A DNA stretch of 64,000 bases from NCBI RefSeq assembly GCF_035961655.1, contig NZ_CP108393.1, positions 6,371,001 to 6,435,000 on the forward strand. Direction: 5' to 3'. The notes beneath the pieces were generated by a model. The model saw only the letters and a program-made list of their open reading frames with translations. It was not told the DNA's origin and did not search any database. The translations under genes and the position numbers were made by a program. The stretch comes from Streptomyces sp. NBC_01317 (GTDB lineage: Bacteria; Actinomycetota; Actinomycetes; Streptomycetales; Streptomycetaceae). Shown one piece after another: positions 2,762-33,832 of this stretch. Numbering within the stretch: the stretch's first letter is position 1; each line of letters opens with the position of its first letter.

Positions 2762-3541
2762 ATGAACCTGCCGGTGACGTCTCTGCCCGCGACCGGTCGC
2801 CGTGTGCTCGTCAGCGGGGCCTCGCGGGGGCTCGGCCGCGCGGTGACCCAGGCCTTCGCCGCCAATGGCGACGTGGTCGCCGTCCACCACGGGACCCGCC
2901 TCGCCGATGCCCGGCTCACGCTGGAGTCCCTGTCCGGTACGGGCCACGTGCTGGTCGGCGGCGACCTCTCGGACCCGGCGGAGGCGGCACGGGTCGCGGA
3001 CGAGGCGGCGGACGCCTTGGGCGGGATCGACGTCCTGGTCAACAACGCGGCGGTCAACGAACGGCATCCGCTCCCGACGACGTCGTACGAGGAGTGGACG
3101 GAGATCTGGCAGCGCCACCTGTCCGTGAACGTCCTCGCCACGGCGCTGCTCAGCCATCGGGCGGCGCGGAACATGATCGACCGGGGGGTGGCGGGCCGGA
3201 TCGTGAACATCGGCTCACGCGGGGCGTACCGGGGTGAGCCGGACCACCCCGCCTACGGCGCGACGAAGGCGGCGGTGCATGCGATGGGGCAGTCCCTGGC
3301 GGTGTCCCTGGCCCCGTACGGCATCGGGGTGGCGTCGGTGGCGCCCGGCTTCTTCGAGACAGAGCGGGTGGCGGGGCGGTTGTCGGGGCCGGAGGGGGAG
3401 GGGATCCGGGCGCAGAGTCCGTTCGGGCGGGTGGGGACGGTCAGGGAGGTGGCGGGGGCGGTTTTCTGGTTGGCGTCGGCGGGGGCGGAGTGGTCGTCGG
3501 GAACGGTCCTGGACCTCAACGGAGCGTCGCACCTCCGGTGA
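2762..3541 (+). CDS. SDR family NAD(P)-dependent oxidoreductase
   Basis: The protein has 259 residues, the usual classical SDR length. The cofactor motif VSGASRGLG lies near residues 17-25, NNAA near 97, and the catalytic pair YGATK near 170 with an upstream Ser (IGSRG). The C terminus has the APGFFETERV loop and ends in WSSGTVLDLNGA, as in FabG-like enzymes. The substrate cannot be read from sequence. It is divergent from the phosphatase gene, with 99 bp between starts, and its 3' end faces repeat cluster A. Confidence 0.85.
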   Translation: MNLPVTSLPATGRRVLVSGASRGLGRAVTQAFAANGDVVAVHHGTRLADARLTLESLSGTGHVLVGGDLSDPAEAARVADEAADALGGIDVLVNNAAVNERHPLPTTSYEEWTEIWQRHLSVNVLATALLSHRAARNMIDRGVAGRIVNIGSRGAYRGEPDHPAYGATKAAVHAMGQSLAVSLAPYGIGVASVAPGFFETERVAGRLSGPEGEGIRAQSPFGRVGTVREVAGAVFWLASAGAEWSSGTVLDLNGASHLR

Positions 3542-3635
3542 GGGGTGCGGGTTACTGATTGTCCTCAATCGCCGGACGGGCTTGGTTGTGCCCGCTGCGG
3601 GCCGGCTTCTATGCGCGGGCCGGTTGCCGGGGGCC

Positions 3636-3749
3636 GGGCAGGGGTCGTGTCCTGCACTGCATGTTTTACGTCGCGTTCGGGGACTTCGGACATTCACGGT
3701 AGTCACGCGACACAAAACACGCTTTACGTTCCGGACACGACCCCTGCCC
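3636..3749. repeat. H1 hairpin element, cluster A
   Basis: Outer arms are perfect 17-bp inverted repeats (GGGCAGGGGTCGTGTCC at 3636-3652, complement at 3733-3749). Inside them GCATGTTTTACGTCGCGT pairs imperfectly with ACGCGACACAAAACACGC, leaving a loop of about 28 nt that contains GGACATTCACGGTAG. Copies with the same outer arms lie at 20491-20604 and 26958-27072. Confidence 0.85.
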
Positions 3750-3984
3750 GTCCCCCTTCCAGGCCCGCGTCAAGACAACCCCCGGCCCGTCCGGCCTTGG
3801 AGACCACCGGGGCACCATCCAGCCCGTCCGGCGTTTGAGGACATCGGTAACCCGCACTCGCGTACCGGGCAGAGGCCACCATCCAGCCCGTCCGGCGTTT
3901 GAGGACATCAGTAAGCCGCGTTCGCCCACCGGGCGCCAGGAGCTCCCCGCAGCGGGGGGTCGTTCGGCTCTCCCTCGGCGTGAG

Positions 3985-4125
3985 GGGGGTGGGGTCGGAG
4001 GAGGTGCGTGTGTCCGGACGTAAAGCGTGTTTTGTGGCGCATGGCTACCGTGAATGTCCGGGGTCCCCGAACGCGCCGTAAAACATGCAGTCCGGACATA
4101 CGTACCTCCGCAGGCCCCACCCCCC
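3985..4125. repeat. H2 hairpin element, cluster A
   Basis: Outer arms of about 34 nt pair imperfectly: the left ends in GTGCGTGTGTCCGGAC and the right begins GTCCGGACATACGTACCTCC. The inner core is the H1 core on the opposite strand (GTAAAGCGTGTTTTGTGGCG on plus). H1 and H2 of this cluster therefore carry related cores in inverted orientation with different outer stems. Confidence 0.85.
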
Positions 4126-4229
4126 GTCACCACGACACACCCAGCCCGTCCGGCGCTTGAGGACATCAGTGAGCCGCGCCCGCGCCCCGGGCAGAGGCCA
4201 ACCCAAGCCCGTCCGGCGCTTGAGGACAA

Positions 4230-5483
4230 TCAGTGTGCCGCGCCCACCACCTGGCGGCGGACAACAGCCCACGCCGTCGCCAGACCCACCACGCAGGCCG
4301 CGAGGAGCAGCGCGCCCACGTCCACGACCGCCACCAGGCCCGCGCCCAGCGCCAGCGCCACCGCGTTCGGTGCGTAGATCAGCGTCGTCGCGGTCGCGGA
4401 CACGCGGCCCAACACCGCCCCCGGAACCTCCCGCTGCACCGCGGTCATCGCCGCGATCAAGACGCACGGCAGCCCCGCCCCCACCCCCGCCGCGCTCGCC
4501 AGGACCGCCGCGTCGTGCGGGAGGGCCCGTAGCCCCAGGGACACCGCGAACACCGCGATCCCCGCCGCCGCGAACACCCGTTCCGGGAGCCGGCGGAGCA
4601 GTGGGCCCGCCAGGAGGCCGATCAGGACGGAACCGGCGCCCTGCACCGCGTACAGCACGCCCACGTACGCGGGGGAGCGGCCGAGGCCCTCGTCTACCAC
4701 CGCGTAGATCACCGCGCCGTTGAGCCCCGCCAGCAGCATCGTCACCGCCGCGGCCAGCACGAGGGGGCCTACGGCCGGGGTGTCCCGGAGCCGCCGTATC
4801 CCCTCCGCCGTCGCGGACCGCCGGCCGCCCCCGCGCGAAGGAACGGGCGGGGAAACAGGAGACTCCCGCACCCGCATCCGCGCGAACAGCCCCGCCGCCA
4901 AGGCGAACGTCGCCGCGTCCAGGAGGGCCACCGTACCCCCGCCGAACCGCGCGTACAGTGCCGCGCCCGCCAGCGGAGCCAGGAGCTTCATGCCCTCGTT
5001 GGCCGTCGTCCGCAGGCCGTTGAACCCGCCCAGCAGCCGCTGGTCGACCACCCCGGCGATCAGCGCCGTCTCCGCCGCGTCCATGACCACCCCGGTCATC
5101 CCGTACACGAACAGCACGGCGAAGAGGATCCAGATCCGGTCCGCCGAGCCGACGGCGAGGAGTGCCGTCAGCAGGAGCGCCATCCCCAGGTTGCAGACGA
5201 TCAGCAGCGGCCGCCGCCGCACCCGGTCGGCGATCCCGCCCAGCACCGGCCCCACCAGCGTCGGCGCCCACATCGCGAAGACGGTCAGCGCCGCCAGACT
5301 GTCCGAGCCGGTCAGGGACTTGACCCAGATCCCGGCGGTCAGCCACATCGCCGAGGTGCCGAATCCGGACACCACCACCCCGGCCAGGTACAGCCCCGCG
5401 TTGCGGTCCCGCAGTACCCCGCCAGCACGTTTTCCTTTACGTCGCATGGCGTCAGGGTGGTGGCTGAGGAGGGGGCCCGGCAT
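4230..5483 (-). CDS. MFS transporter (drug-exporter-like)
   Basis: The 417-residue protein has about twelve hydrophobic segments. The loop between helices 2 and 3 reads GGIADRVRRRPLL, the MFS motif A, near residue 83. The overall pattern (IWVKSLTGSDSLAAL, NGLRTTANEGMKLLAP) resembles the MFS-3 / macrolide-efflux-like group, so export of a small molecule is likely but the substrate is unknown. An ATG at 5447 would give a 405-residue protein starting MRRKGKR. I kept the longer form because a TAGGGC -10-like hexamer lies just upstream of it. The stop abuts a 22-bp repeat box. Confidence 0.8.
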   Translation of the reverse strand: MPGPLLSHHPDAMRRKGKRAGGVLRDRNAGLYLAGVVVSGFGTSAMWLTAGIWVKSLTGSDSLAALTVFAMWAPTLVGPVLGGIADRVRRRPLLIVCNLGMALLLTALLAVGSADRIWILFAVLFVYGMTGVVMDAAETALIAGVVDQRLLGGFNGLRTTANEGMKLLAPLAGAALYARFGGGTVALLDAATFALAAGLFARMRVRESPVSPPVPSRGGGRRSATAEGIRRLRDTPAVGPLVLAAAVTMLLAGLNGAVIYAVVDEGLGRSPAYVGVLYAVQGAGSVLIGLLAGPLLRRLPERVFAAAGIAVFAVSLGLRALPHDAAVLASAAGVGAGLPCVLIAAMTAVQREVPGAVLGRVSATATTLIYAPNAVALALGAGLVAVVDVGALLLAACVVGLATAWAVVRRQVVGAAH

Positions 5484-20490: not shown

Positions 20491-20604
20491 GGGCAGGGGT
20501 CGTGTCCTGCACTGCATGTTTTACGTCGCGTTCGGGGACTTTGGACATTCACGGTAGTCATGCGACACAAAACACGCTTTACGTTCCGGACACGACCCCT
20601 GCCC
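20491..20604. repeat. H1 hairpin element, cluster B
   Basis: The 17-bp perfect outer arms are identical to cluster A H1 (20491-20507 and 20588-20604), and total length is the same at 114 nt. The loop contains GGACATTCACGGTAG, as in cluster A. Confidence 0.85.
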
Positions 20605-20819
20605 GTCCCCCTTCCAGGCCCGCGCCAAAACAAGCAGGCCCGCCCCGGTCTTTAAGCCGGTCCGGCGCTTGAGGACATCGGTGAGCCGCGCTCGCGCACC
20701 GCGCAGGGGCACCATCCAGCCCGTCCGGCGATTGAGGACGTTGGTAGGCGGCACCGTCCACCGGGGGAAACTGACCCACCCCGCAGCGGGGGGTCGTTGC
20801 GTCTCCCGTCGGCGTGAGG

Positions 20820-20959
20820 GGGGTGGGGTCGGAGGAGGTGCGTGTGTCCGGACGTAAAGCGTGTTTTGTGGCGCATGGCTACCGTGAATGTTCGGGGTTC
20901 CTGAGGCGCCGTAAAACATGCAGTCCGGACATACGTACCTCCGGAGGCCCCGGCCCCCG
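20820..20959. repeat. H2 hairpin element, cluster B
   Basis: The arm and core sequences match cluster A H2 (GTGCGTGTGTCCGGAC on the left, GTCCGGACATACGTACCTCC on the right). The loop differs slightly (CCGTGAATGTTCGGGG on plus). Confidence 0.85.
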
Positions 20960-26578: not shown

Positions 26579-26719
26579 GGGGGGCGGGGCCTGCGGAGGT
26601 ACGTATGTCCGGACTGCATGTTTTACGGCGCCTCAGGGACTCGCATAGTTCACCGGTAGTCATGCGCCACAAAACACGCTTTACGTCCGGACACACGCAC
26701 CTCCTCCGACCCCACCCCC
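26579..26719. repeat. H2 hairpin element, cluster C
   Basis: The arms match H2 of clusters A and B in reverse orientation (GGAGGTACGTATGTCCGGAC on the left). The loop is altered to AGTTCACCGGTAG where A and B read ACATTCACGGTAG. Confidence 0.85.
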
Positions 26720-26957
26720 CTCACGCCGAGGGTGAGCTGAACGACCCCGCCGGTCCGGGGAGCCTCGCCTCTGCCCGGTGGACGGTGCCGCTTACCAATG
26801 TCCTCAAGCGCCGGACGGGCTGGAGTGTGGCCTCTGCCCGGTACGCGAGCGCGGCTTACTGATGTCCTCAATCGCCGGACGGGCTGGAAGTGGCCCCGGT
26901 GGTCTCCAAGGCCGGACGGGCCGGGGGTTGTCTTGGACGCGGGCGTGGAAGGGGGAC

Positions 26958-27072
26958 GGGCAGGGGTCGTGTCCGGAACGTAGAGCGTGTTTTGTGTCGC
27001 GTGGCTACCGGTGAACTGAACAAGTCCCCGAACGCGACGTAAAACATGCAGTGCAGGACACGACCCCTGCCC
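26958..27072. repeat. H1 hairpin element, cluster C
   Basis: The same perfect 17-bp arms as clusters A and B (26958-26974 and 27056-27072) enclose a core in reverse orientation. The loop on the minus strand contains AGTTCACCGGTAG, identical to the H2 loop of this cluster. Confidence 0.85.
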
Positions 27073-33718: not shown

Positions 33719-33832
33719 GGGGGTCGGGGTCGGAGGAGGCATGGGTGTCCGGACGTAAAGCGTCGCAACTCGCGCGAAGCGCGGTGAGGATAGCAGTCCG
33801 GACACCCGTGCCTCCGTAGGCCCCGGCCCCCG
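33719..33832. repeat. H2-armed hairpin with a different core, inside the cob operon
   Basis: Two 36-nt arms are complementary at about 30 positions, ending in GGGTGTCCGGAC and GTCCGGACACCC. GTAAAGCG follows the left arm and GCA precedes the right, as in H2. The central part (TCGCAACTCGCGCGAAGCGC onward) is unrelated to the H1/H2 core. It lies in the 247-bp gap between cobQ and the chelatase gene, the only gap in an otherwise overlapping operon. Confidence 0.8.

Follow-up and report, generated by a model that had tools for sequence, protein, structure and literature searches.

The 688-bp gap at 3542–4229, between the stop codons of two convergent genes in the 64,000-nucleotide stretch of Streptomyces sp. 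NBC_01317 DNA analysed here (the window), is mostly repeated sequence and carries two large hairpins, H1 and H2, whose related cores lie on opposite strands amid arrays of a 22-bp box. The arrangement is dispersed through this genome, and we lean, with modest confidence, towards the interpretation that it is a non-coding element of the REP/REPIN kind, unusually large, RAYT-less, and probably doubling as a bidirectional terminator. Genes were called with a purpose-made codon-score caller, and the parts of the gap and its flanks are as follows:

2762–3541, + strand: left convergent gene, a short-chain dehydrogenase (SDR; Pfam adh_short_C2, 3.1e-43)
3560–3583, − strand: leftmost 22-bp box, facing outward
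3629–3756, − strand: hairpin H1 with its outer arms (128 nt), sense strand GTAAAGC...GCAGT (core model match at 3636–3747, 105.4 bits)
3778–3802, + strand: degenerate box of family D3
3820–3843, + strand: box
3884–3907, + strand: box, 64 bp after the box at 3820–3843
3984–4125, + strand: hairpin H2 with its outer arms (142 nt; core model match at 4000–4111, 104.3 bits)
4142–4165, + strand: box
4205–4228, + strand: rightmost box, adjoining the stop codon of the − strand gene
4230–5483, − strand: right convergent gene, an MFS transporter (Pfam MFS_1, 3.9e-24)

The H1 core (3636–3747) has its sense on the − strand and the H2 core (4000–4111) on the + strand, and the two cores form 74-nt inverted arms with 92% complementarity. 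An earlier reading of this DNA from sequence only had described two long hairpins, of 114 and about 140 nt, in one intergenic gap with related cores on opposite strands, and this description is borne out, the lengths fitting those found here. It had also called the outer stems unrelated, which holds for their outermost part but not beside the core, where GTGTCCGGA(A)C is common to both. The 22-bp boxes that it placed around the hairpins are present, with one on the − strand at the left and, on the + strand, one degenerate box and four good ones, the latter arranged as two pairs 63–64 bp apart. The outermost boxes point outward at 29 of 30 loci in this genome and, as in a MITE, the gap is bounded by terminal inverted repeats (arms 3537–3592 and 4196–4251, 82% complementary).

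A sixteen-base arm pattern, allowing up to three mismatches, occurs six times in the window compared with 0.03 expected, and the design recurs twice more, as the sequence-only reading had stated. Both further cassettes, at 20491–20944 and 26593–27072, lie between convergent genes, and a variant absent from that reading brings the hairpins of the window to seven:

20491–20602, − strand: second cassette, H1 (core model match)
20834–20944, + strand: second cassette, H2 (core model match)
26593–26704, − strand: third cassette, in mirror order, H2 (core model match)
26960–27072, + strand: third cassette, in mirror order, H1 (core model match)
33735–33817, + strand: single variant hairpin between tandem − strand genes, with the kernel GGAC-GTAAAGC...GCA-GTCC retained and a different apical part

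Across the whole genome the core arm ACGTARAGCGTGTTTTGTG, searched with up to three mismatches, has 94 copies, of which 93 are exact and one has a single mismatch, none having two or three; the backwards control sequence has no copies. The 94 arms resolve into 43 pairs and eight singles, and all 43 pairs have the order '− then +'. Arm-to-arm distances within pairs range from 146 to 401 bp, for the most part in increments of about 62 bp, the pattern that gain or loss of whole box units would produce. Both members could be typed in 30 distinct pairs, and each of these consists of one H1 and one H2 (16 as H1-H2 and 14 as H2-H1). The whole-genome search that the earlier reading had proposed thus finds H1 and H2 recurring together beyond the window, the opposite of one outcome that it had named as refuting its proposal. 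With a 106-bp H1 query, six genome copies are identical. The box CCCGTCCGGCGNTTGAGGA is still more abundant, with 318 exact genome copies and none in the control, and the vicinity of some outward-facing box pairs, such as C1:839668(−)/839721(+), lacks a core arm. In Embleya NZ_CP108777.1, from another genus of Streptomycetaceae, 16 places also match the box portion of the query, and because of these many matches the box seems to be an older, separate repeat.

Both hairpins fold far better than chance. As RNA, H1 (3625–3760) reaches −78.8 kcal/mol (z −8.8) and H2 (3980–4130) −110.7 kcal/mol (z −11.8), values that no shuffle among 200 equalled for either hairpin, and the cores also fold as single-stranded DNA (z −8.6 for H1 and −6.9 for H2). 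Across 42 aligned hairpins, of which this genome supplies seven, the commonest core is GTAAAGCGTG(A/T)TTTGTGGCGC - loop - GCGCCGTAAA(A/T)CATGCA. The family model has 36 pairs and loops mostly of 31–38 nt, and a 5′ GTAAA facing a single A is a conserved unpaired motif inside the 112-nt hairpin. The sequence of the outer stem varies by species with pairing retained, 16 of 20 outer pairs being altered on both sides, and the covariation score for the whole structure is 0.304, compared with 0.097 for shuffled and at most 0.081 for slid alignments. G·U wobbles are retained on one strand in 42 of 42 and 41 of 42 hairpins.

The copies within this genome differ little in their stems. Differences per column among 35 H1 sites are 0.012 and 0.002 in the two stem arms, 0.228 in the loops and 0.307 and 0.104 outside, and among 32 H2 sites they are 0.004 and 0.007 in the stems, 0.265 in the loops and 0.242 and 0.103 outside; the comparison admits copies with up to three substitutions per arm, and no arm had two or three mismatches. 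The stems are therefore constrained and the loops drift about as the surroundings do. No H1 loop is identical to an H2 loop, yet they have long segments in common while the stems stay distinct, which hints at loop exchange between H1 and H2 copies.

The hairpins have a clear preference for certain gaps. From 97 hairpins in other genomes, 16 duplicates, 12 at contig edges and one inside a called ORF were dropped, and the remaining 68, with both neighbours called, lie in 33 convergent, 32 tandem and three divergent gaps. The other gaps of the loci, a baseline of 199 that includes loci of this genome and in which orthologues are not collapsed, comprise 24 convergent, 89 tandem and 86 divergent gaps, giving p values of 2e-9 for convergent enrichment and 2e-10 for divergent depletion. 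When related sites are collapsed, by a procedure that joins sites through any similar flank and may over-collapse, there are 14 convergent, 19 tandem and two divergent gaps among 35, and the p values become 2e-4 and 6e-6. In this genome, 30 sites comprise 16 convergent, 13 tandem and one divergent gap, and 29 of the 30 lie behind at least one gene. In tandem gaps the hairpin is on the strand of the genes 16 times and on the opposite strand 16 times (seven and 12 after collapsing). Tabulating orientation against the direction of the flanking genes, as had been suggested, therefore indicates that location counts (behind genes and away from promoters) and that the strand of transcription does not. 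There is likewise no replichore polarity among 40 H1 places on both halves of the chromosome, with the origin taken as central (9+/6− and 13+/12−). Beside a phosphoglucomutase/phosphomannomutase gene, both here and in three further Streptomyces (L013, L171, L172, L174), the gap bears hairpins, reflecting either shared descent or a preferred site.

Two orthologous gaps bear on the history of the element. Following the SRP54 gene (Pfam assignment), the gap measures 651 bp here and is filled by a cassette, and in G008 and G005 it measures about 60–75 bp and, as judged by eye, contains a plain hairpin. Of 13 relatives, only these two have the flanking pieces side by side (0.9–10 kb apart in the other 11). 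The search for empty sites in relatives that the sequence-only reading had called for thus yielded two short gaps of this kind but neither an exact empty site nor a target-site duplication, none of the relatives being close and their flanks being at most 86% identical. At a convergent ABC/MFS gap (Pfam), the query matched 366 of 392 genomes, mostly through the ABC gene, and among the 30 returned loci that were read, 16 have both genes, nine with the hairpin and seven lacking it according to a fuzzy pattern that may miss decayed copies. The hairpin is in one orientation in six loci and in the other in three, corresponding to two groups of species. Three of the seven hairpin-less loci have remnants (half an outer arm in L237 and L245, and a cut-out look with one arm left in L236), which point to loss, and because gaps without the hairpin exist it is dispensable at this site. 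Most simply, the sequences suggest that the ABC/MFS hairpin is an old one that has descended vertically, underwent a single inversion and can be dispensed with, with reciprocal loss from an ancestral pair being a possible alternative source of the opposite orientations. These copies, which look old and vertical, are unlike those of a hopping element and count against a mobile reading.

The hairpins could be host-maintained bidirectional terminators only, inherited vertically at gene 3′ ends and immobile, with selection and gene conversion keeping their copies similar. We consider this rather unlikely as a full account, but several observations agree with it: the position behind genes, the indifference to strand, the plain hairpins at the SRP54 gap in two relatives, and the pattern of differences among 11 filled ABC/MFS copies (hand-chosen rows, with L227, whose loop is nearly deleted, left out, and with L230 and L101 identical), where the core arms (0.066 and 0.084) and outer stems (0.092 and 0.098) vary less than the ABC coding sequence (0.119) and much less than the loop (0.503). 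A terminator, however, needs no conserved core, fixed heterodimer order or box arrays, and neither the presence of the same cassette in unrelated gaps nor its patchy distribution fits such an origin. On both strands, the 25 nt that follow H1 and H2 are also free of any T-run, such that neither has the form of an intrinsic terminator, a G+C-rich hairpin followed by a T-run, although termination may also proceed with no T-run. A terminator scan of 3400–4400 returned nothing, but it takes loops of 3–8 only and could not score H1 or H2; a promoter scan found none, although it was expected to find none. We retain bidirectional termination as the most likely role of the REPIN-like element in place, suggested by the plain hairpins of the two relatives at the SRP54 gap but, given the missing T-runs, only inferred.

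The family is patchily distributed. Scanning a single genome of each species for the pattern gave 57 stretches, all from Streptomyces bar L121 (Verrucomicrobiales), which has no partner arm and was rejected as a chance match. With a covariance model, scoring 9–12 candidates per genome under strict filters, matches were found in 75 of 392 sampled Streptomyces genomes, in 56 of 293 genomes of the order (two of nine genera, with one genome only from another genus) and in three of 345 genomes of the class (one of 126 genera), some of the 75 and 56 matching genomes carrying short forms only. The short form, the kernel alone (pattern GACGTAAAGC-NNN-GCAGTC), occurs in 10 of 295 genomes. Same-gap pairs in loci fetched from other genomes, most of them chosen because listings already showed pairs, have the order '− then +' in 14 of 15 cases (nine of ten long and five of five short). 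The exception, '+ then −', is in S. antimicrobicus (L090, 2078–2150(+) and 2368–2441(−)), and the pair order is thus not absolute across species. Contigs or stretches often end in or beside hairpins (L075, L078, L085, L086, L105, L116 and L124; C53, C57, C83 and C94 of G265), and draft genomes may therefore undercount them. Phage records gave no matches, and a single exact short-form match in viral contigs was set aside as probable chance after pattern and gene scans. Four plasmid records match, of which two from Embleya and one from NBC_01351 match in the box part only, judging by query coordinates, and the NBC_01298 plasmid has a real hairpin; one Embleya region was opened and was without annotation. 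The linear Streptomyces plasmid L127 (NZ_CP108416.1) has one hairpin between co-directional genes and is a possible vehicle between strains.

This distribution weakens the proposal of the sequence-only reading that the locus is a chromosome-organisation element. If the hairpins bound a topoisomerase or a protein that organises the chromosome, within convergent gaps that are positively supercoiled and much as BIMEs bind gyrase in E. coli, this would account for the convergent enrichment and for palindromic, paired sites, but 317 of the 392 genomes of the genus have no model match under the strict filters used and the H1 strands are mixed on both chromosome halves, and we find this explanation improbable.

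We searched for a mover of the REPIN-like element. The Y1/RAYT transposase domain (PF01797) has no match in this genome, and a RAYT was accordingly rejected as the mover here. It is found in four of 23 genomes, three of 12 carriers and one of 11 lacking a model match, indicating no clear association with the element, and the same search gives matches in five of 14 control genomes. Among 814 called proteins beside hairpins, grouped into 468 clusters, none of the 14 largest has the look of a transposase family travelling with the element, as read from the start of one member per cluster. Hairpins 1.9–4.3 kb apart in L171–L175 could bracket an autonomous copy, but the seven proteins scanned between or beside them include no transposase and are three phosphomutases, an acetyltransferase, a TAP-like hydrolase, a PH domain protein and an FAD/HEAT protein.

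A different activity is conceivable at such structures, in which the hairpin is a folded single-strand recombination or inversion site that an enzyme or replication template-switching flips, with loops exchanged between copies. The opposite orientations of the ABC/MFS hairpin in two species groups, the long segments common to H1 and H2 loops and the conserved asymmetric bulge are all compatible with this. Inversion across long inverted arms nonetheless requires no dedicated enzyme, the opposite orientations could also stem from an ancestral pair that lost one member or the other, and no recombinase was identified, making this, too, a doubtful explanation. The weakest alternative, that these are structured non-coding RNAs or mRNA 3′-end elements acting on one strand, is very improbable, since strong RNA folding, the one-strand conservation of G·U wobbles and the short abundant transcripts at palindromes in S. 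coelicolor and E. coli noted in available portions of one study (PMC4681348) are set against the lack of strand preference in tandem gaps, before and after collapsing, and the absence of any Rfam family at gathering score in 3400–4400 (six sub-threshold miRNA-type matches, the best with 36.8 bits against a cut-off of 72).

For the three identities offered by the sequence-only reading, orientation thus lends nothing to a structured RNA locus, and a non-autonomous mobile element fares best. The 43 genome places and the short plain hairpin that is all two relatives have at the SRP54 gap speak for mobility, and the lack of a transposase, exact empty site or target duplication, together with one single hairpin that is apparently vertical across species, speaks against it.

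Among known systems, the BIMEs of E. coli, which are associated with gyrase/IHF binding, are palindromes mixed with other motifs at gene 3′ ends; the mosaic at gene 3′ ends is alike here, but motif sequence, size and box arrays differ. The attC sites of integrons, which are folded, bulged single-strand sites that go with an integron integrase and R boxes, have only a general likeness to the hairpins described here. The closest parallel is with REPINs, REP doublets that are associated with RAYT transposases and whose predicted active form is a hairpin, which according to the available part of their description are extragenic inverted pairs of imperfect palindromes dispersed as doublets, with conserved ends, a less conserved spacer and compensatory changes (PMC3116915). 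Doublets arranged as inverted repeats are likewise found in all 43 pairs here and in 14 of 15 in the fetched loci, and the two are also alike in that the asymmetric bulge is conserved, the pairs face outward and the strand of transcription is immaterial. The differences, as far as that portion describes REPINs, are that REPs are short whereas our hairpins are about 112–142 nt, that the core arms here are 146–401 bp apart in steps near 62 bp and form a heterodimer with two outer stems, and that there is no Y1/RAYT gene and 93 of 94 arms are perfect. The GTAG tag of REPIN/RAYT systems is not present, the unpaired motif being GTAAA opposite A within a 112-nt hairpin.

In the accessible sections of a survey of GTAG- and CGTC-tagged REPs, opposite-orientation dimers are common, often with two unlike partners, and CGTC-tagged families with no linked transposase are described (PMC3733652), and an element of this kind is to that extent already known. 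The tagged REPs there have stems of 5–13 bp and loops of 2–20, far smaller than the hairpins here, and the CGTC-tagged form (an 8–9 bp stem, a 4–5 nt loop and a terminal unpaired CGTC) differs from our 36 pairs and loops mostly of 31–38 nt. Those sections mention untagged REP-like families in M. tuberculosis, do not contain the word Streptomyces, and do not describe a conserved internal bulge, comparable size, box arrays or near-perfect arms (PMC3733652). A 2025 REP survey, in its available text, names three other actinomycete species (PMC12306157). The MRSC-65-2 motif, as partially available, is a single long covarying stem with dozens of copies per genome, proposed to be selfish and possibly acting as DNA (PMC11109978); it is set apart by its description, since it spans diverse phyla and has a conserved UYCCGG repeat, whereas our element, whose conserved core is another one, was confined to Streptomycetaceae within the sampling. 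Term-seq of S. clavuligerus revealed bidirectional 3′ ends between opposed transcripts, with no repeated paired hairpin family described in the available text (PMC8269248), and the short abundant transcripts at palindromes in S. coelicolor and E. coli, a large number of which lie in 3′ UTRs, are mostly taken as decay intermediates in the portions available (PMC4681348). None of six core and box strings occurs in the open-licence papers searched, and no description of such a Streptomyces repeat family was recognised there among the matches listed.

A plausible model for the REPIN-like element is as follows. The unit is a large, imperfect hairpin whose asymmetric core (5′ GTAAA facing a single A, followed by conserved paired arms) is conserved, whose outer stem covaries and is specific to the species, and whose apical loop is free; H1 and H2, with their differing outer stems, are locked as an outward-facing heterodimer amid 22-bp box arrays, and this cassette has been copied to about 50 intergenic gaps of this genome. 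The cassette sits as a unit in unrelated gaps, which argues that something copies it. A factor may read the asymmetric core in DNA, probably as a folded single strand, much as RAYTs do with REP hairpins, and such DNA-level reading would explain both the perfect arms and the indifference to the strand of transcription. Once in place, H1 and H2 would most likely end transcription from both sides. The structure with its covariation and constraint, the dispersal, the pairing rule, the position and the two orientations at one orthologous site are observed; the enzyme, the reading at DNA level, the vertical descent with inversion at that site and the termination are inferred. More tentatively, we suggest a RAYT-independent hairpin-copying system, in which a candidate enzyme would recognise the folded, bulged DNA core GGAC-GTAAA-GC...GC-A-GTCC, keep the arms identical, spread outward heterodimers to gene 3′ ends and be able to flip a hairpin in place, with the outer stem drifting by species and the loop free.

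Streptomyces are heavily engineered, yet such a repeat family was not met in the open-licence literature among the matches listed. If the interpretation as a REPIN-like element is correct, a single mobile module, which may terminate transcription from either side, occupies some fifty gaps of this genome, and a RAYT is not required for REP-like elements to persist. The near-perfect arms, free loops, heterodimer order and presence of both orientations at one site would make REP-like copying and upkeep testable in Streptomyces, a genus that is not pathogenic.
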